Origin: Labedaea rhizosphaerae
Lineage (GTDB): Bacteria; Actinomycetota; Actinomycetes; Mycobacteriales; Pseudonocardiaceae
Direction of reading: 5' to 3'
Length of the DNA stretch: 64,000 nucleotides
Assembly (NCBI RefSeq): GCF_004362825.1
Contig: NZ_SNXZ01000002.1
Location: forward strand, 1,421,365 to 1,485,364
Below the pieces are notes generated by a model. That model searched no databases, was not told the DNA's origin, and saw only the letters and a program-made list of their open reading frames with translations. The first letter of the stretch is position 1; each line of letters begins with the position of its first letter. Shown here piece after piece: positions 7,190 to 47,120 of this stretch. Position numbers and translations under genes: made by a program.

Positions 7190-8134
7190 ATGACCATCGC
7201 ATCGATACCGTTGGCGCACGCCGACCCGGGATTGCTGGACCGGGCCCTGCGCCACGGTCCGTTCGATGCCGCGTTGCGTGCGGCCATCGTCGCGTCCGGG
7301 TTGTCGCTCGACCGCTTGCGCACCAAGCTCGCCGAGCGCGGGATGCCGGTCGGGATAACGACTTTGAGCTACTGGCAGCGTGGTTTACGCAGACCCGAAA
7401 GACCGGAGTCGTTGCGCGCCGTCGCCATGCTGGAGCAGATCCTGGGCCTGCCGGACCGGTCGTTGATCGTGCTGCTCGGGCCACCCCGGCCCCGCGGCGG
7501 ACCGAGCCGCGGCGTGCCCCGGTTCACCGAGCTGATCAAGGCGCCGGACGCGCTCGACGCGCTGCTCGCGGACCTGGACTCCCCCGCCGCGGGGCGGCTG
7601 CGCGTGGTGAGCCAGTACGACAAGGTGACGGTGAACGCCGCCGGCGCGATCGACCGCATCGACACGACGTCGGTGGTCAGCGCGCCGTCCGGGGACGTGG
7701 ACCGGGCGCTGGTGATCTACACCGTCGAGACCGGCGAGCGTGCGCAGGACGTGACGATCGTGCCCGGCGACAGCTGCCGGCTGGGCCGCACGGTGGCGTG
7801 CCCGATCGCGCGGGCGCGGGTCGCGGAGGTGCTGTTCGACCGCAGGCTCGGGGTCAACGACACGCACATGATGAGCTACCGGATCCAGGTCGGCGAGGAC
7901 ACCCGCGCCCACGAGCACGTCACCGGATTCCGGTTGCCCGCAGGGCATTACGTGCTGCGCGTGGCGTTCGACCCGCGCACGCTCCCGGTGCGGATGCGCC
8001 GGTTCACCGCCCGGGACTCGGGGTCGCCGGAGGAGGACATCGCGGAGCTGACCCTCGACAGCCACCACTCGGTGCACTTGGTGGCCGATGACGTCCGGCC
8101 GGGCGTGGTCGGCATCCGGTGGGACTGGAGCTGA
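7190..8134 (+). CDS. Helix-turn-helix protein with C-terminal sensory-like domain
   Basis: 314 residues. Residues about 20-90 form an XRE-like HTH with the actinomycete pattern LAERGMPVGITTLSYWQRG and ESLRAVAMLEQILGLP. The rest is a beta-rich domain (TVACPIARARVAEVLFDR, RIQVGEDTRAHEHVTGF) that I do not recognise. ATG 7190 follows a GGGGAG site. It stands alone, divergent from the peptidase pair, with a strong palindrome between them, so regulation of that pair or of itself is possible. It could also act as a non-DNA-binding scaffold, as some of these proteins lack clear targets. Confidence 0.72.
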   Translation: MTIASIPLAHADPGLLDRALRHGPFDAALRAAIVASGLSLDRLRTKLAERGMPVGITTLSYWQRGLRRPERPESLRAVAMLEQILGLPDRSLIVLLGPPRPRGGPSRGVPRFTELIKAPDALDALLADLDSPAAGRLRVVSQYDKVTVNAAGAIDRIDTTSVVSAPSGDVDRALVIYTVETGERAQDVTIVPGDSCRLGRTVACPIARARVAEVLFDRRLGVNDTHMMSYRIQVGEDTRAHEHVTGFRLPAGHYVLRVAFDPRTLPVRMRRFTARDSGSPEEDIAELTLDSHHSVHLVADDVRPGVVGIRWDWS

Positions 8135-40299: not shown

Positions 40300-41340
40300 G
40301 TGGACGATCAGACGGTGGACCTCCAGGACGGCGCACGTCCGACGCTCGAGGACGTCGCCGCGCACGCCGGCGTCTCCCGCTCGACCGCGTCGCGGGCGCT
40401 CAACGGAGACACCTACGTCAGCGCGCGCGCCCGGGAGAAGGTCCTCGCCTCGGCCGCGGCGCTGGGCTACTCCCCCAACCAAGCGGCGCGCTCGCTGGTC
40501 ACCCGGCGCACCGGCGCGGTGGCCGTCGTGCTCTCCGAGGCGGAGGCCACCGTCCTCGACGACCCGTACTTCGCGATAGTGGTGCGCGCGGCGTTTCGGG
40601 CCCTGGCCGACGCGGGCAGCCAGATGCTGTTGATGTTCGTCGACAGCGCCGACGACGTCCCGCGCACCGTGCGCTTCCTGGACGGCGGCCACGTCGACGG
40701 CGCCCTGGTCTTCGCCTCCCACCAGAAGGACCCGTTACCCGCGGCCGTGCAGCAACTGCGGTTGCCGGTGGTGTTCGGCGGGCCCGCCGGGAACCTGACC
40801 AGCGGCGTGCACGCGGTCGACTTCGACAACCGGGCCGGCGCGGCCGCGGCGGTCGAGCACCTGATCGCGTCCGGCCGCAAGCAGATCGCGATGGTCTCCG
40901 GGCCGCCCGATCACCGGGCCGCCGCCGACCGCCTGACCGGCTGGCGGTCGGCGTTGACGGCCCACAAGATCCGCGGCACCCGCCTGTTCGAGCAGGGCGA
41001 CTTCACCATCGAGGGCGGCCGCTCGGCGATGGCGAAGTTGCTGGCGCGCAAACCCGATCTGGACGCGGTGTTCGCGGCCAGCGACCTGATGGCGGCGGGG
41101 GCGATCCGCGAACTGGAAGCGGCCGGGCGCCGCATCCCCGATGACGTCGCCGTGATCGGCTTCGACGACAACCCGGTGCTCGCGCCCGTGATGAAACCGC
41201 CGCTGTCGTCGGTCCACCAGGACCCGCGGCTGCAGGTGCGCCGGATGGTGGAGACGTTGACCGCGTTGCTGGCCGGCGAGGAGGTGACCCCGGCACGGCA
41301 CATGCTGGGCGTGTCGCTGACCCTGCGCGAGTCCGGCTGA
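40300..41340 (+). CDS. cebR: LacI-family repressor of cellobiose genes
   Basis: 346 residues: N-terminal LacI HTH (PTLEDVAAHAGVSRSTASRA, then LGYSPNQAARSLVTRRTGAV hinge) and a periplasmic-binding-like effector domain (DLMAAGAIRELEAAGRRIPD, DVAVIGFDDNPVLAP). Cellobiose is the expected inducer. GTG 40300 is chosen because it precedes the conserved HTH; no upstream in-frame start is better. Divergent from cebEFG-bglC with one CebR box near each start. Confidence 0.93.
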   Translation: MDDQTVDLQDGARPTLEDVAAHAGVSRSTASRALNGDTYVSARAREKVLASAAALGYSPNQAARSLVTRRTGAVAVVLSEAEATVLDDPYFAIVVRAAFRALADAGSQMLLMFVDSADDVPRTVRFLDGGHVDGALVFASHQKDPLPAAVQQLRLPVVFGGPAGNLTSGVHAVDFDNRAGAAAAVEHLIASGRKQIAMVSGPPDHRAAADRLTGWRSALTAHKIRGTRLFEQGDFTIEGGRSAMAKLLARKPDLDAVFAASDLMAAGAIRELEAAGRRIPDDVAVIGFDDNPVLAPVMKPPLSSVHQDPRLQVRRMVETLTALLAGEEVTPARHMLGVSLTLRESG

Positions 41341-41387
41341 CCCCGAAGCTGAACCCCGCGCGCGGGCAACGTGACCTGCTAATGTCG

Positions 41388-41530
41388 GCTTGCAGTGTCT
41401 AGGGTTCCGCCGTTCCACCCTCTCCGTTCTTCGAGCGGAGGACAGGGAAAGCGGGTCTGGTCCGAGCGACACCACCGGGTGCCACCGGACGGCAGTCGGT
41501 CATCTCAAGGGACAAAAGCCTGGAGGACCC
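41388..41530 (+). ncRNA. Guanidine-I (ykkC-class) riboswitch aptamer
   Basis: The gap between cebR and the TSUP gene holds the ykkC core in order: TCTAGGGTTCCG (41398-41409), GGTCTGGTCCGAG (41454-41466), a short hairpin with ACACC/GGTGCC, then GACGGCAG and, after a variable segment, GGGACAAAAGCCTGGAGGA (41509-41527). The ACGGC...GGGACAAAAGCC part distinguishes guanidine-I from the ppGpp and PRPP subclasses that share the first blocks. Downstream, AGGACC (41524-41529) can pair with GGTCCT (41559-41564), hiding part of the GAGAGG ribosome site (41555-41560), a plausible translational switch. Called from motifs by eye. Confidence 0.8.
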
Positions 41531-41568
41531 CGGTTTCCGCGTGCGCGGGAGCCCGAGAGGTCCTGCTG

Positions 41569-42300
41569 ATGTCGCCCGAATTGCTCGTGACCCTGCTGCT
41601 TGCCTCGATCCTCGCCTTCGGCCTCGCGTGGCTGTCGTCGGTGGGCGGCATGGGCGGCACCGTGGTGATGATGGTCGTGTTCACCGCGTTGTTCGGCCTC
41701 CAGGTGGCGGTGCCCCTGCTGACCCTGACCCAACTCGCGAGCAACGGTGGCCGGGCGTGGTTCAACCGCGCCGAGGTCCAGTGGCGGATCATCCGGTGGC
41801 ACGCCCTCGGCGCGATCCCCTTCGCCCTCGGCGGCGGGTTGCTGTTCGCCTACGCCCCCGTGGAGCTGCTCAAGCGCTTGCTCGGCGCCTCGCTGATGGC
41901 CACGGTCGTCTGGCGGCGGCTGCGCCCATCCGTCGCCAAGCCCGGCGAGAGGACGTTCATCGCCATCGGCGGTGCGGCCGGGCTCAGCTCGTCGCTCCTC
42001 GGCGCGGCCGGTCCCCTGACCGCCCCGTTCTTCCTCGCCTACAGCCTGAGCGGTGGCGCGTACGTGGGGACCGAGGCCGCGGCGTCGCTCGTCATCCACC
42101 TCACCAAGATCACGGCCTACGCCACCGGAAGCCTGGTCTCGCCGCAGGTCCTCCTGCTGGGTGCGGCCCTCGCCCCAGCGGTCACCGCGGGCACCTGGGC
42201 CGGCAAGAAGACGCTGCAGCACATGAGCAAACGCCTCTTCGTGGCGGTGACCGAGGTCGGAATCCTCATCGCCGGAGTCCTGCTCGTCGTCGGCATCTGA
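41569..42300 (+). CDS. TSUP (TauE/SafE-like) membrane transporter
   Basis: 243 residues, about eight membrane segments, two homologous halves; GMGGTVVMMVVFTALFGLQ and AAGLSSSLLGAAGPLTAPFF are the paired glycine-rich family motifs. TSUP members move sulfite, sulfonates or organic anions. Start ATG 41569, eight bases after GAGAGG, directly behind the guanidine-I riboswitch, so its expression should rise with guanidine. An efflux or uptake role linked to guanidine is therefore inferred, although the family is not one I know to carry it. Confidence 0.88.
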   Translation: MSPELLVTLLLASILAFGLAWLSSVGGMGGTVVMMVVFTALFGLQVAVPLLTLTQLASNGGRAWFNRAEVQWRIIRWHALGAIPFALGGGLLFAYAPVELLKRLLGASLMATVVWRRLRPSVAKPGERTFIAIGGAAGLSSSLLGAAGPLTAPFFLAYSLSGGAYVGTEAAASLVIHLTKITAYATGSLVSPQVLLLGAALAPAVTAGTWAGKKTLQHMSKRLFVAVTEVGILIAGVLLVVGI

Positions 42301-42342: not shown

Positions 42343-42948
42343 GTGCCCTACCGCCGGACGCCAGCCGTGCAAGCGCGGCTCGATGCCCAGCGCAAGACGG
42401 TGCTGGACGCGGCCATCGCGCTGCTGAGCGAGCAGGGTTACGCGGGGTGCTCCATGGCCGCCGTCGCCGCCCGGGCCGGGGTCGCCACGGGCACCGTCTA
42501 CAAGCACTTCACCAGCAAGTCCGAGCTCTCCGTCGAGCTCTTCCGCACCGTCGTCACGCGGGAAGTCGCCGCCGTCGAGGCGGCGGCCCACGGGCCGGGC
42601 GACCTCATCGAGCGGATCGTCGCGGTGATCGAGACGTTCGCGGGCCGCGCGCTCAAGGCGCCGCGGCTGGCCTACGCCCTGCTGGTCGAACCGGTCGAAC
42701 CGGCCATCGACCAGGAACGGCTGGTGTTCCGGCGGGCCTTCCGGGACATCTTCGCCGAACGCATCGCCGAGGGCGTCGCGACCGGCGTCCTGCCTCCGCA
42801 AGACCCACAGCTGACCGCCGCCGCCCTGGTCGGCGCCGGGGCGGAAGCCCTGGTCGGACCGCTGACCGACGGCTCCACCGACGTCCTGCCGGGCCTGGCC
42901 CGGTTCACCCTGCGCGCCCTGGGAGGAACGCATGCCGAGCACCCATGA
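42343..42948 (+). CDS. TetR-family transcriptional regulator
   Basis: 201 residues. HTH at about 14-60 (AAIALLSEQGYAGCSMAAVA and VATGTVYKHFTSKSEL); helical ligand domain follows. Starts with GTG 42343. Short dyads GAAGC...GCTTC (42312-42332) and GTGAA...TTCAC (42318-42334) just upstream may be its operator. The downstream AidB-like gene begins 17 bases inside its 3' end, so it is the first gene of a four-gene acyl-CoA operon and probably autoregulates it. Confidence 0.9.
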   Translation: MPYRRTPAVQARLDAQRKTVLDAAIALLSEQGYAGCSMAAVAARAGVATGTVYKHFTSKSELSVELFRTVVTREVAAVEAAAHGPGDLIERIVAVIETFAGRALKAPRLAYALLVEPVEPAIDQERLVFRRAFRDIFAERIAEGVATGVLPPQDPQLTAAALVGAGAEALVGPLTDGSTDVLPGLARFTLRALGGTHAEHP

Positions 42949-44566
42949 GGTCACCAACCAGGTCCCGCCGCTGGCCGGGCACGACATCGCGGGTTACCCC
43001 GCCTTGCTCGAAGGGTTGCACCGCGAAGGCGCGGGCGCAGCCGAGCCGGAGTTGCGGGAGCTGGGCACCCGCGCGGGCAGCGCGGAGGTCCAGGACTGGG
43101 CTCGCCTCGTCGAGGCCTACCCGCCGAAGCTGCGCACCCACGACCGCTACGGCCACCGCATCGACGAGGTCGAGTTCCACCCGCACTGGCACGACCTCAT
43201 GACCGTCGCGGTCGAGCACGGCATCCACGCCGCGCCGTGGCGCAGCGCGGAACCCGGCGCCCACGTCGCCCGCGCCGCCAAGATGTTCGTGTGGGGGCAG
43301 ACCGATCCCGGACACCTCTGCCCCATCTCCATGACCTACGCCGCCGTGCCCGCGCTGCGCACCTCACCGGAGCTGGCGAGCAAGTTCGAGGCGCTGCTGA
43401 GCTCGCCCGTCTACGACTTCGGGCTGCGGGAGCCGAGCACCAAGCGCGGCCTCATCGCCGGCATGTCGATGACCGAGAAGCAGGGCGGCTCCGACGTCCG
43501 CGCGAACACGACCAGGGCCACGCCCAACGCCGACGGCACCTACACCATCGTCGGGCACAAGTGGTTCACCTCGGCGCCGATGTCCGACGTGTTCCTGACC
43601 CTCGCGCAGGCGCCGAACGGGCTCTCCTGCTTCCTGCTCCCCCGCGTCCTGCCCGACGGCAGCCGCAACGCACTGCGGTTGCAGCGCCTCAAGGACAAGC
43701 TGGGCAACCGGTCGAACGCGTCCTCGGAGATCGAGTACGACGACGCGATCGGCTGGCTGGTCGGCGAGGAAGGCCGCGGCGTCCAGACGATCATCCAGAT
43801 GGTCAACCTGACCCGGCTGGACTGCACGATCGCGTCGTCCGCGGGCATGCACCTCGGTGTCACGCAGGCGTTGCACCACGCGATGCACCGCAAGACCTTC
43901 GGCACCACGCTGATCGACCAGCCGTTGATGCGCAACGTCCTCGCCGACCTGGCCATCGAGGCGGAGGCCGCGACGCTGACCAGCATGCGCCTCGCCGGTG
44001 CGGTCGACCGCGCCCTCGGCGGGGACGAGCAGGAGGCGGCGTTCCGCCGGATCGGGATCGCCGTCAGCAAGTACTGGATCTGCAAGCGCGCGCCCATGCA
44101 CGCCGGCGAGGCCCTGGAATGCCTGGGCGGCAACGGGTACGTCGAGGAGTCGGGCATGCCACGGCTCTACCGCGAGGCGCCGCTGCCGTCCATTTGGGAG
44201 GGTTCGGGCAACGTCGCCGCGCTGGACGCGTTGCGGGCCATGGCCAAGCAGCCCGACACCGTGCAGGCGTACTTCCGAGAGGTCGAGCTGGCCGCTGGCG
44301 CCGACGCGCGGCTGGACACCGCCGTCGCGCAGGTGCGCAAGGAACTGTCCGATCTGGACGACATCCAGTACCGGGCCCGGCGCGTCGTCGAGCTGATGGC
44401 GTTGGTGCTGCAGGCCTCCCTGCTGCACCGGCATGGCAACGCGGCCGTCGCCGACGCGTTCACGGCGTCCCGGTTGGACGGCGACAGCGGGCACGCGTTC
44501 GGCACGCTGCCCGCCGGGGTGGACACCGAGGCCATCCTCGAGCGCGCCCGGCCGGTGTTCTCGTGA
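42932..44566 (+). CDS. AidB-like acyl-CoA dehydrogenase family protein
   Basis: 544 residues, long four-domain ACAD of the AidB type: start PPLAGHDIAGYPALLEGLHR, MSMTEKQGGSDVRANTT (FAD region), SAPMSDVFLTLAQAP, and RAPMHAGEALECLGGNGYVE then WEGSGNVAALDALRA, which is the AidB C-terminal arrangement. In E. coli AidB binds DNA and is induced by alkylation; here the coupled neighbours are two crotonase-family genes, which points to CoA-thioester metabolism instead. ATG 42932 has GGGAGGA upstream, inside tetR. Confidence 0.88.
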   Translation: MPSTHEVTNQVPPLAGHDIAGYPALLEGLHREGAGAAEPELRELGTRAGSAEVQDWARLVEAYPPKLRTHDRYGHRIDEVEFHPHWHDLMTVAVEHGIHAAPWRSAEPGAHVARAAKMFVWGQTDPGHLCPISMTYAAVPALRTSPELASKFEALLSSPVYDFGLREPSTKRGLIAGMSMTEKQGGSDVRANTTRATPNADGTYTIVGHKWFTSAPMSDVFLTLAQAPNGLSCFLLPRVLPDGSRNALRLQRLKDKLGNRSNASSEIEYDDAIGWLVGEEGRGVQTIIQMVNLTRLDCTIASSAGMHLGVTQALHHAMHRKTFGTTLIDQPLMRNVLADLAIEAEAATLTSMRLAGAVDRALGGDEQEAAFRRIGIAVSKYWICKRAPMHAGEALECLGGNGYVEESGMPRLYREAPLPSIWEGSGNVAALDALRAMAKQPDTVQAYFREVELAAGADARLDTAVAQVRKELSDLDDIQYRARRVVELMALVLQASLLHRHGNAAVADAFTASRLDGDSGHAFGTLPAGVDTEAILERARPVFS

Positions 44567-45405
44567 CGGCGGTCCGCACCGAGACCGCGGCCGGCGTGCG
44601 GTCGATCATCCTGTGCCGGGCCGACGAGTACAACACGATCACGCCCGAACTACGGGACGAGCTCGCGGCCGCGATCGACGAGGCCGACAACGACCCGGAC
44701 GTGCACGTGATGCTCCTGCGCGCCGACGGTCCGGCGTTCTGCGCCGGCTACGGCCTCGACTGGTCGACGCAGATGCAGGCCGCCGAGTCCGAATCGGACC
44801 GGGTGTGGGACTCCGTCGCCGACATGCGGGTGTTGTCCACGTTCATCGACGTGTACATGAAGCTCTGGTACGCGAGCAAACCCACCATCGCGGCGGTGAA
44901 CGGCTGGTGCATCGCGGGCGGCACGGACATGGTGCTGTGCGCCGACATCGTGGTCGCGGGCGAGGGCGCCTCGTTCGGCTACCCGCCCGCCCGGGTGTGG
45001 GGCACGCCGACGACCGCGATGTGGGTGTACCGCCTGGGTTTCGAGAAGGCCAAGCGCTACCTGCTCACCGGCGACGAGATCCCCGCGCCCAAGGCGGCCG
45101 AGATAGGGCTGATCCTGGAGTGCGTGCCGGACGACCAACTGGCCGACCACGCGATGGCGCTGGCCAAGCGGATGGCACAGGTGCCGGTGAACCAGCTGCG
45201 CATGCTCAAGCTGTTGTGCAACCAGACCGCGGAGAACATGGGGCTGTCGTCCAGCCGCACGCTGGGCACGCTGCTCGACGGCGTCGCCCGGCACACCCAG
45301 GAAGGGCGCGACTTCGTGGCCCGATCCGCACAGGCGGGCATCCGCCAGGCGGTCCGCGAGCGTGACGACCCGTTCGGCGACTACGGATCACGGGGCCGCT
45401 CATGA
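44563..45405 (+). CDS. Enoyl-CoA hydratase/isomerase family protein 1
   Basis: 280 residues, crotonase fold. Oxyanion motifs: FCAGYGLDWSTQM for the first and NGWCIAGGTDMVLCAD for the second. The usual catalytic Glu after GGG is changed (GGTDM), so hydration cannot be assumed; such members may isomerise or hydrolyse. GTG 44563 overlaps the AidB-like stop (GTGA) and its stop overlaps the next start (ATGA). Confidence 0.9.
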   Translation: MTAVRTETAAGVRSIILCRADEYNTITPELRDELAAAIDEADNDPDVHVMLLRADGPAFCAGYGLDWSTQMQAAESESDRVWDSVADMRVLSTFIDVYMKLWYASKPTIAAVNGWCIAGGTDMVLCADIVVAGEGASFGYPPARVWGTPTTAMWVYRLGFEKAKRYLLTGDEIPAPKAAEIGLILECVPDDQLADHAMALAKRMAQVPVNQLRMLKLLCNQTAENMGLSSSRTLGTLLDGVARHTQEGRDFVARSAQAGIRQAVRERDDPFGDYGSRGRS

Positions 45406-46154
45406 CCGTGCGGATCGACCACGACGGCCCGGTCACGATCATCACCATCGACCGGCCGGACCGGCGCAACGCCGTCGACCGCCGCACGGCCGAAGAACTC
45501 GCCAAGGCGTTCCGGGACTTCGAGGCCTCCGATGCGTCGGTCGCCGTGCTGACCGGCGCGAACGGCACGTTCTGCGCGGGCGCCGACCTCAAGGCGATCA
45601 GCACCGGCGACGGCAACCGGGTCGCGCCGGACGGCGACGGTCCGATGGGGATCTCGCGGCTGCGCCTGACCAAGCCGGTCATCGCGGCGGTCAGCGGGCA
45701 CGCCGTGGCCGGCGGGCTCGAACTGGCGTTGTGGGCCGACCTGCGGGTGGCCGACGAAACGGCGGTGTTCGGGGTGTTCTGCCGCCGGTGGGGCGTGCCG
45801 CTGATCGACGGCGGCACGGTGCGGCTGCCCCGGCTGATCGGCACGAGCGTGGCCATGGACCTGATCCTGACCGGCCGCGCCGTCGAGGCCGAGGAGGCGC
45901 TGCGGATCGGCCTGGCCAACCGGCTCGTGCCCGCGGGCCAGGCCCGGGCCGCCGCTGTCGAACTGGGCAAGCAGCTGGCCGCGCTCCCCCAGACCTGCCT
46001 GCGCCACGACCGGTTGTCCGTCCTGGAGCAGGACGGCCTCGACGAGGAAGCGGCCGTGGCGAACGAGTTCCGGCACGGCATGATCTCGCTGGCCGACGGC
46101 GCGGTCGCCGGGGCCACGCGGTTCGCCGAGGGGGCCGGGCGCCACGGCGCTTGA
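45402..46154 (+). CDS. Enoyl-CoA hydratase/isomerase family protein 2
   Basis: 250 residues, crotonase fold: ITIDRPDRRNAVDRR at the N terminus, FCAGADLKAI and SGHAVAGGLELALWADL for the oxyanion hole, with the conserved Glu of the GGLELAL motif present, unlike its neighbour. Probably the true hydratase of the pair. Last gene of the TetR operon; 60 bases before the next, separately promoted gene. Confidence 0.92.
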   Translation: MTVRIDHDGPVTIITIDRPDRRNAVDRRTAEELAKAFRDFEASDASVAVLTGANGTFCAGADLKAISTGDGNRVAPDGDGPMGISRLRLTKPVIAAVSGHAVAGGLELALWADLRVADETAVFGVFCRRWGVPLIDGGTVRLPRLIGTSVAMDLILTGRAVEAEEALRIGLANRLVPAGQARAAAVELGKQLAALPQTCLRHDRLSVLEQDGLDEEAAVANEFRHGMISLADGAVAGATRFAEGAGRHGA

Positions 46155-46214
46155 CGCCTCATACCGTGGTCGCGTCCTACCCCGTGCGACCGGCCCGCGG
46201 GTAGGGTCGGGCGC

Positions 46215-47120
46215 ATGCGGACACTGCGCACGCCGGACGACCGGTTCGCCGCCCTGCCTGGTTTCGACCTCGAACCGCACTACGCCGAAGTGTCCGATCA
46301 GGACGGTGGCACGCTGCGGATGGCCTACGTCGAAGCCGGTCCCGCCGACGGTCCGGTGGCGGTGCTGCTGCACGGCGAGCCGAGCTGGTCGTTCCTGTAC
46401 CGCACGGTGATCCCGGTGCTGACCGACGCCGGGATCCGGTCGGTGGTACCGGATCTAGTCGGGTTCGGCCGCTCCGACAAGCCGGCCGAGCCAGGCGACC
46501 ACAGCTACGCACGCCACGTCGAATGGGTGCGTGCCTTGCTCTTCGACGCCCTCGACCTGCGGGGCGTGACCGTCGTCGGCCAGGACTGGGGTGGGCTGAT
46601 CGGGCTGCGCCTGGTCGGCGAGCACCCGGACCGGTTCGCCCGCGTGGTCGCGGCCAACACCGGCCTGCCCACCGGCGACACCGACATGCCCGAGGTGTGG
46701 TGGCAGTTCCGCACCGCCGTGGAGAAGGCGCCCACGCTGGACATCGGCCGCTTCGTGCAGGCGGGCTGCCGCAAACCGATGCCCGACGACGTGCGTGCCG
46801 CCTACGACGCGCCGTTCCCGGACGAGTCCTACAAGGCCGGCCCGAAGGCCATGCCCGGCCTCGTGCCGACCCGGCCCGACGACCCGGCGAGCGCGGCGAA
46901 CCGGGCCGCGTGGCAGCGGCTGACCGAGCTGGACCTGCCGTTCCTGGTCGCGTTCAGCGACGGCGACCCGATCACCGGTGGCATGGCGCCGATCCTGGGC
47001 CGGGCGATGCCGGGGGCCGCCGGGCGCGAGCATCCGACGATCGCGGGCGCCGGTCACTTCCTGCAGGAGGACGCCGGGCCCGAGCTCGGCGCGGCGATCG
47101 CGGCGTTCGTCCGCGGCTAG
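46215..47120 (+). CDS. Haloalkane dehalogenase-like alpha/beta hydrolase
   Basis: 301 residues, haloalkane dehalogenase subfamily I pattern: oxyanion HGEPSWSFLYR, nucleophile Asp124 with halide-binding Trp125 in VVGQDWGGLIG, acid in FSDGDPITGG and base His281 (GAGHFLQEDAG). The Asp nucleophile favours C-halogen hydrolysis, though epoxide hydrolase-like use is possible. Leaderless: TAGGGT (46202-46207) ends seven bases before ATG 46215. The stop lies in the hairpin shared with the convergent phosphotransferase gene. Confidence 0.87.
   Translation: MRTLRTPDDRFAALPGFDLEPHYAEVSDQDGGTLRMAYVEAGPADGPVAVLLHGEPSWSFLYRTVIPVLTDAGIRSVVPDLVGFGRSDKPAEPGDHSYARHVEWVRALLFDALDLRGVTVVGQDWGGLIGLRLVGEHPDRFARVVAANTGLPTGDTDMPEVWWQFRTAVEKAPTLDIGRFVQAGCRKPMPDDVRAAYDAPFPDESYKAGPKAMPGLVPTRPDDPASAANRAAWQRLTELDLPFLVAFSDGDPITGGMAPILGRAMPGAAGREHPTIAGAGHFLQEDAGPELGAAIAAFVRG

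Follow-up and report, generated by a model that had tools for sequence, protein, structure and literature searches.

The gap between a cebR-like gene and a gene for a TSUP-family transporter in Labedaea rhizosphaerae holds a ykkC-like leader RNA, and the locus raises the question of which branch of the ykkC riboswitches this RNA belongs to and what it may sense. The window analyzed here is the whole stretch of 64,000 nucleotides (contig NZ_SNXZ01000002.1, positions 1,421,365 to 1,485,364 of the forward strand), and coordinates refer to it unless a locus is named. The initial annotation read the RNA as a guanidine-I riboswitch driving the transporter gene. We conclude that the gap very probably carries a candidate riboswitch of ykkC subtype 2d that controls translation of the TSUP-family transporter. 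The features of the locus are as follows:

3′ end at 41340: cebR-like LacI gene, the upstream flank of the RNA-bearing gap
41380 to 41385, + strand: -10-like hexamer TAATGT, tentative, found by eye directly 5′ of the aptamer
41392 to 41529, + strand: putative ykkC subtype 2d aptamer (held-out covariance model R1, 93.0 bits, E 3e-18; RF00442, 42.6 bits)
41395 to 41399, + strand: P1 5′ strand GUGUC, pairing with GACAC at 41468 to 41472 (consensus helix 1; co-varies, 98.8% of cells paired)
41399 to 41409, + strand: CTAGGGTTCCG / CUAGGGUUCCG block, conserved family-wide (read in the sequence and alignment)
ending at 41466, + strand: GGTCTGGTCCGAG block (read in the sequence)
41467, + strand: discriminator nucleotide C, an A in guanidine-I RNAs (discriminator A46/C49, PMC6031431)
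41474 to 41500, + strand: P2 hairpin, the variable, co-varying helix 4, with ACGGC at 41489 to 41493
41501 to 41527, + strand: P3 ligand-pocket hairpin CAUCU...GGACAAAAGCC...GGAGGA (pair U41503-A41527; covariation of alignment columns 129 and 153)
41509 to 41520, + strand: GGGACAAAAGCC block (read in the sequence)
41524 to 41529, + strand: switching strand AGGACC, in P3 or paired with 41559 to 41564 (triple covariation, permutation)
41559 to 41564, + strand: partner strand GGUCCU, overlapping the ribosome-binding site GAGAGG at 41555 to 41560 (permutation, triplets, folding)
41569 to 42300, + strand: TSUP-family (TauE/SafE) membrane transporter of 243 aa (PF01925, 89.8 bits, E 2.8e-25)

The TSUP identity of the client gene was confirmed, with the Pfam profile PF01925 spanning residues 14-238 of the protein well above its cut-off of 32.6 bits; solved structures resembling the protein in sequence were not found. 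TAATGT can be taken only tentatively as a -10 element because no -35/-10 pair passed a consensus scan. Genes for a TetR regulator, an AidB-like acyl-CoA dehydrogenase, an enoyl-CoA hydratase and an alpha/beta hydrolase lie 3′ of the transporter gene (42343-47120), with no evident functional link to it. Synteny within the host family was uninformative, since the search for TSUP orthologues there returned a single distant, partial relative in another genome (L007). TSUP genes lacking the RNA had been named in the initial annotation as evidence that would count against it; distant L007 is such a gene, while the TSUP genes of loci L016 and L119 do have the RNA.

The Rfam guanidine-I model RF00442 (ykkC subtype 1) aligned end to end with 41388-41527(+) at E = 1.3e-6 (291 bases searched). 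Its score of 42.6 bits lies under the gathering cut-off of 63, which is why a whole-window Rfam scan at gathering thresholds came back empty, and no other Rfam family gave a credible match to the gap RNA. Three of the ykkC blocks reported in the initial annotation (CTAGGGTTCCG, GGTCTGGTCCGAG and GGGACAAAAGCC) are present; the fourth, ACGGC, falls in the variable P2, and the conserved ACGG of guanidine-I is CAUCU here. With its CUAGGGUUCCG, CUGGUCCGAG and GGAYAAAAGCC blocks and its P1-P2-P3 fold, the RNA has the ykkC scaffold, as judged by RF00442, R1 and covariation. In the consensus fold, 92.6% of cells are paired and double-change cells number 153 against 54 in shuffles; covariation reaches 0.466 versus 0.153 when shuffled (0/500), and slid controls do not exceed about 0.13. 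P2 of the window RNA is weak, with some non-standard pairs.

Two properties separate this RNA from guanidine-I, with which it shares the P1/P1a/P1b/P2/P3 scaffold and the conserved blocks. A46 in guanidine-I aptamers, as opposed to a pyrimidine in PRPP and ppGpp aptamers, distinguishes guanidine from non-guanidine ykkC RNAs in PMC6031431, and the window RNA has C41467 at this position. The P3 S-turn pocket differs as well, with CAUCU for ACGG in the 5′ strand and GGAGG for GGGAG in the 3′ strand. A class-wide survey with RF00442 divided the matches along the same line: A-type RNAs lie 5′ of agmatinase/guanidinase-like genes, symporters and APC permeases, and nearly all RNAs preceding guanidine-type genes have A at the discriminator, whereas C-type RNAs lie 5′ of EamA or TSUP transporters with one exception, a guaA leader in the host genome.

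Relatives of the window RNA were sought in GTDB genomes with a DNA pattern built from the C-type P3 strand, which gave at least 119 matching stretches. The other ykkC blocks are present in the matches listed, save for one coincidence within a coding sequence (L138), and all 125 readable RNAs among them have C at the discriminator. The next gene, called heuristically in the fetched loci, encodes an EamA protein in 114 of the 132 matches listed and a TSUP protein in nine; the remaining nine comprise five cut at the locus edge, L115 (TSUP), L071 (MFS), L144 (start of an EamA gene) and the L138 coincidence. Sampling is mostly from Microbacteriaceae, and common ancestry inflates these counts. A covariance model, R1, was built from 33 other C-type RNAs, leaving out the window RNA and its nearest relative, L016; it scored these two at 93.0 and 100.9 bits, respectively, and A-type (guanidine-I) RNAs at about 32-56. 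In a phylum-wide R1 search, readable C-type matches lay 5′ of EamA genes and A-type matches 5′ of guanidinase-like and other guanidine-I-type genes. No guanidine gene was found 3′ of a C-type RNA among the matches listed or in the RF00442 and R1 surveys.

Wherever the downstream gene is visible in the more than 100 relatives listed, it encodes a transporter. EamA proteins of two lineages occur, one phn_DUF6-like (TIGR03340, 80-136 bits; cut-off 288) and one YedA/2A78-like. TSUP proteins fall into three: those of the window, L016 and L119 (55-60% identical), those of L018, L038, L070, L091 and L128 (62-81%), and that of L115 (PF01925, 95 bits), unrelated to the others at that level. The single MFS permease (L071, PF07690, 74 bits) follows a 2d RNA at 7654-7759(-) of that locus, from a Geodermatophilaceae MAG, and this client type goes unmentioned for 2d in the accessible text of the literature. 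An RNA that stays constant while its transporters change is consistent with transporters that remove the ligand or a closely related compound.

These features agree with subtype 2d of the ykkC family. This orphan class, described by Nelson 2017 and Sherlock 2018 and 2019 and reviewed in PMC7266159, lies 5′ of EamA and TauE transporters and had no assigned ligand as of 2020, according to the accessible portions of PMC7266159 and PMC5912903. As the class is defined there, the window RNA has the ykkC scaffold, the non-A discriminator and the TauE client, the EamA (phn_DUF6) clients recur in its relatives, and nothing contradictory was found. The assignment is based on the discriminator, the client genes and our own held-out model, the fit being judged without the published 2d alignment. 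On these grounds, we regard the RNA as a well-supported new member of subtype 2d and not of guanidine-I. Some 2d RNAs, of Pseudonocardia, Amycolatopsis, Nonomuraea, Saccharopolyspora and others, have a conserved ACAAYCAGGG insert in P1b (columns 49-70 of alignment A2; for example L002, L028, L031, L044 and L141) that is absent from the window RNA. The host genome bears a second, intact 2d RNA 5′ of an EamA gene.

The guanidine-I reading, in which the TSUP protein would transport guanidine or a derivative, draws on the full-length RF00442 match and on the 2d consensus resembling guanidine-I more than any other class (PMC5912903, accessible text). We nevertheless consider it highly improbable and reject it, given the score under the cut-off, the C at the discriminator, the altered P3 strands and the lack of guanidine genes downstream of the C-type RNAs surveyed. 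Further departures from guanidine-I are the transporter-only clients of the 2d RNAs listed and, at the window RNA, the occluded ribosome site and the absence of a terminator-like site. The initial annotation had also supposed that TSUP proteins were not established clients; TauE genes are already listed as 2d clients in the available text of PMC7266159, and inferring a guanidine role for TSUP proteins therefore has no basis. The ppGpp, PRPP and NDP riboswitches (2a, 2b and 2c) share the scaffold, with a pyrimidine discriminator stated for 2a and 2b. Their clients, genes of amino-acid or purine synthesis (branched-chain amino acids, glutamate or purines for 2a and 2b) and NUDIX/HAD hydrolases, are absent at the window RNA, which precedes a TSUP gene, and at its relatives, which precede EamA, TSUP and MFS genes. 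A resemblance that is accidental or degenerate and serves no regulatory purpose might be read from the ordinary single-sequence folding energy of the aptamer (z about -0.1). This reading is refuted by strong covariation across many genera, and the E value of 3e-18 with an independent model and the second intact copy in the host genome also argue against it, making it barely conceivable.

A third ykkC-like RNA of the host genome lies 5′ of guaA (GMP synthase) at G000:C1:1861258-1861468 (L003; L004 3012-3190; L150). It is C-type, yet has a different P3 (CAUCU..CGGGAGAGAAACCCAGGGAGGGACC). It was found in 9 of 151 host-family genomes, from five genera, with guaA as the next gene in all nine read; among 247 genomes of the class, its own model found it in the host genome only, at least some of the other matches being 2d RNAs. 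guaA is not among the clients of 2a-2d listed in the accessible text of PMC7266159 and PMC5912903.

How the ykkC 2d RNA could control the transporter gene is suggested by its 3′ end, where two mutually exclusive pairings co-vary. The P3 closing pair joins the third base of CAnCU to the base after GGAGG and is U-A in 15, C-G in 14, G-C in two and A-U in one of the 33 RNAs. That base, together with the preceding GG and the following bases, can also base-pair with a segment that overlaps the ribosome-binding site. Pairing of the 3′ arm with its own leader exceeded every permutation (0/10000; 36 dereplicated leaders), a test that does not fully remove the relatedness of the leaders. The P3 base, the base after GGAGG and its partner on the Shine-Dalgarno (SD) side co-vary as U-A-U in 15 cases, C-G-C in 14 and G-C-G in two; the SD-side partner was picked as the best helix, so that this pairing is partly built in and the permutation serves as the independent test. 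An anti-SD helix is not clear in a minority of 2d members, such as L028, L036 and L041. The window RNA can form either U41503-A41527 with C41504-G41526 in P3 or AGGACC (41524-41529) with GGUCCU (41559-41564). The stem that the initial annotation expected to be able to hide the ribosome site thus holds up: the anti-SD hairpin 41521-41575 has a predicted energy of -27.7 kcal/mol (z = -2.6), and its pairing co-varies in relatives. Transcription termination was rejected as a mode of control, as no terminator-like site was found at the window RNA.

The triple covariation supports a predicted translational ON switch. Without ligand, AGGACC would pair with GGUCCU and hide the ribosome-binding site. 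A captured ligand would stabilize P3, holding GG and the next base against CAUCU (41501-41505), and the ribosome site would be released for the transporter to be made. Ligand binding and the ON direction are proposed by analogy with the ON behavior of the guanidine-I, PRPP and ppGpp switches (PMC6031431). The TSUP protein would then most likely export the ligand or its relative. The mutually exclusive P3/anti-SD pairing was not found in the accessible text of the 2d literature, nor was the counted phosphonate-cluster linkage that bears on the ligand.

A gene for a phosphate/phosphite/phosphonate (PhnD-type) binding protein lies near the 2d-EamA gene in 27 of the 118 eight-kilobase loci listed, usually within the next 1-4 kb and in 25 of the 27 in the same orientation. 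Nine genera are represented: Microbacterium, Frigoribacterium, Leucobacter, Curtobacterium, Pseudoclavibacter, Agromyces, Leifsonia, Aeromicrobium and Phytoactinopolyspora. With five TIGR01098 matches above cut-off in 60 genomes of the class, about 0.02-0.04 cases would be expected by chance in 0.92 Mb. Three further loci (L032, L093 and L149) have HpnW only, and at L100 genes for HpnW, a PhnX-like protein, HpnZ and PhnC, all above NCBIfam cut-offs, flank the 2d-EamA gene. In Phytoactinopolyspora, the EamA gene is of the other, divergent lineage, the PhnD is about 27% identical and the orientation is divergent, so the association there is apparently independent. Some neighbors were set aside: that of L097 has methylisocitrate lyase as its closest family, at a score below cut-off, and DNA_pol3_delta_C and one glyoxalase reflect a conserved chromosomal position in Amycolatopsis/Saccharopolyspora. 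The main text of two open-access papers on HpnW-type enzymes does not mention EamA. The host genome has two TIGR01098-type binding-protein genes (one above cut-off) at G000:C2:213756-216665, far from its 2d RNAs; sulfide-quinone-reductase-like and DsrE-like genes were recognized by eye around them (L178), and no 2d RNA was found in that region (G000:C2:206500-226000).

Two kinds of ligand have to be weighed. We tentatively favor a metabolite of phosphonate catabolism or a related small oxyanion, with exporters expelling the ligand or a by-product; candidates within this same reading are 2-aminoethylphosphonate, its 1-hydroxy or N-methyl form, phosphonoacetaldehyde, phosphite, and taurine, sulfonate or sulfite counterparts. 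The linkage of PhnD-type genes, the L100 cluster and the Phytoactinopolyspora case point this way, as does the PRPP aptamer, where the C at the discriminator position is a ligand of a metal that is bound to phosphate (PMC6031431). Against it, about two thirds of the loci that extend far enough downstream lack phosphonate genes, which adjoin the other third, no phosphonate-type neighbor was recognized at the window locus, the Microbacteriaceae cases may descend from one ancestral linkage, and neighborhood is not ligand identity. A sulfonate link at the TSUP loci is weak at most: sulfur-related neighbors occur at just two of them, L091 (SsuA, above cut-off) and L018 (rhodanese-type), which is too few to claim an association. 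The substrates known for the TSUP family are mainly anions, among them sulfite and sulfonates. The name phn_DUF6 was known to the earlier 2d authors and hinted at phosphonates; in the accessible text of PMC5912903, they proposed a guanidine-like toxic compound instead. A toxic small cation resembling guanidinium gains from the placement of EamA in the same drug/metabolite superfamily as the guanidine exporters (PMC5912903, accessible text), but the client swap to TSUP and the repeated phosphonate-gene linkage weigh against it, and we consider it rather unlikely. A phosphonate-related compound or oxyanion thus appears somewhat more likely than such a cation, though it is unproven and well short of an even chance. 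It is possible, if still somewhat doubtful, that a phosphonate-type (C-P) metabolite, or a small oxyanion isosteric with one, is what 2d RNAs detect, and that the EamA, TSUP and MFS exporters can stand in for one another as its outlets.

In the latest paper found to discuss it (2020), and in its accessible text, 2d is the last ykkC branch without an assigned ligand. More than 100 examples, a predicted ON-switch architecture and phosphonate uptake genes at one third of the loci that extend far enough downstream narrow the candidate compounds to a short list. Standard tools label 2d-type RNAs as guanidine-I, which would wrongly give TSUP proteins a role in guanidine transport. If the phosphonate/oxyanion reading is true, 2d would bind an anion like its sisters 2a-2c, and not a cation like guanidine-I, and the TSUP protein of this window would be an exporter of the phosphonate or sulfonate type.
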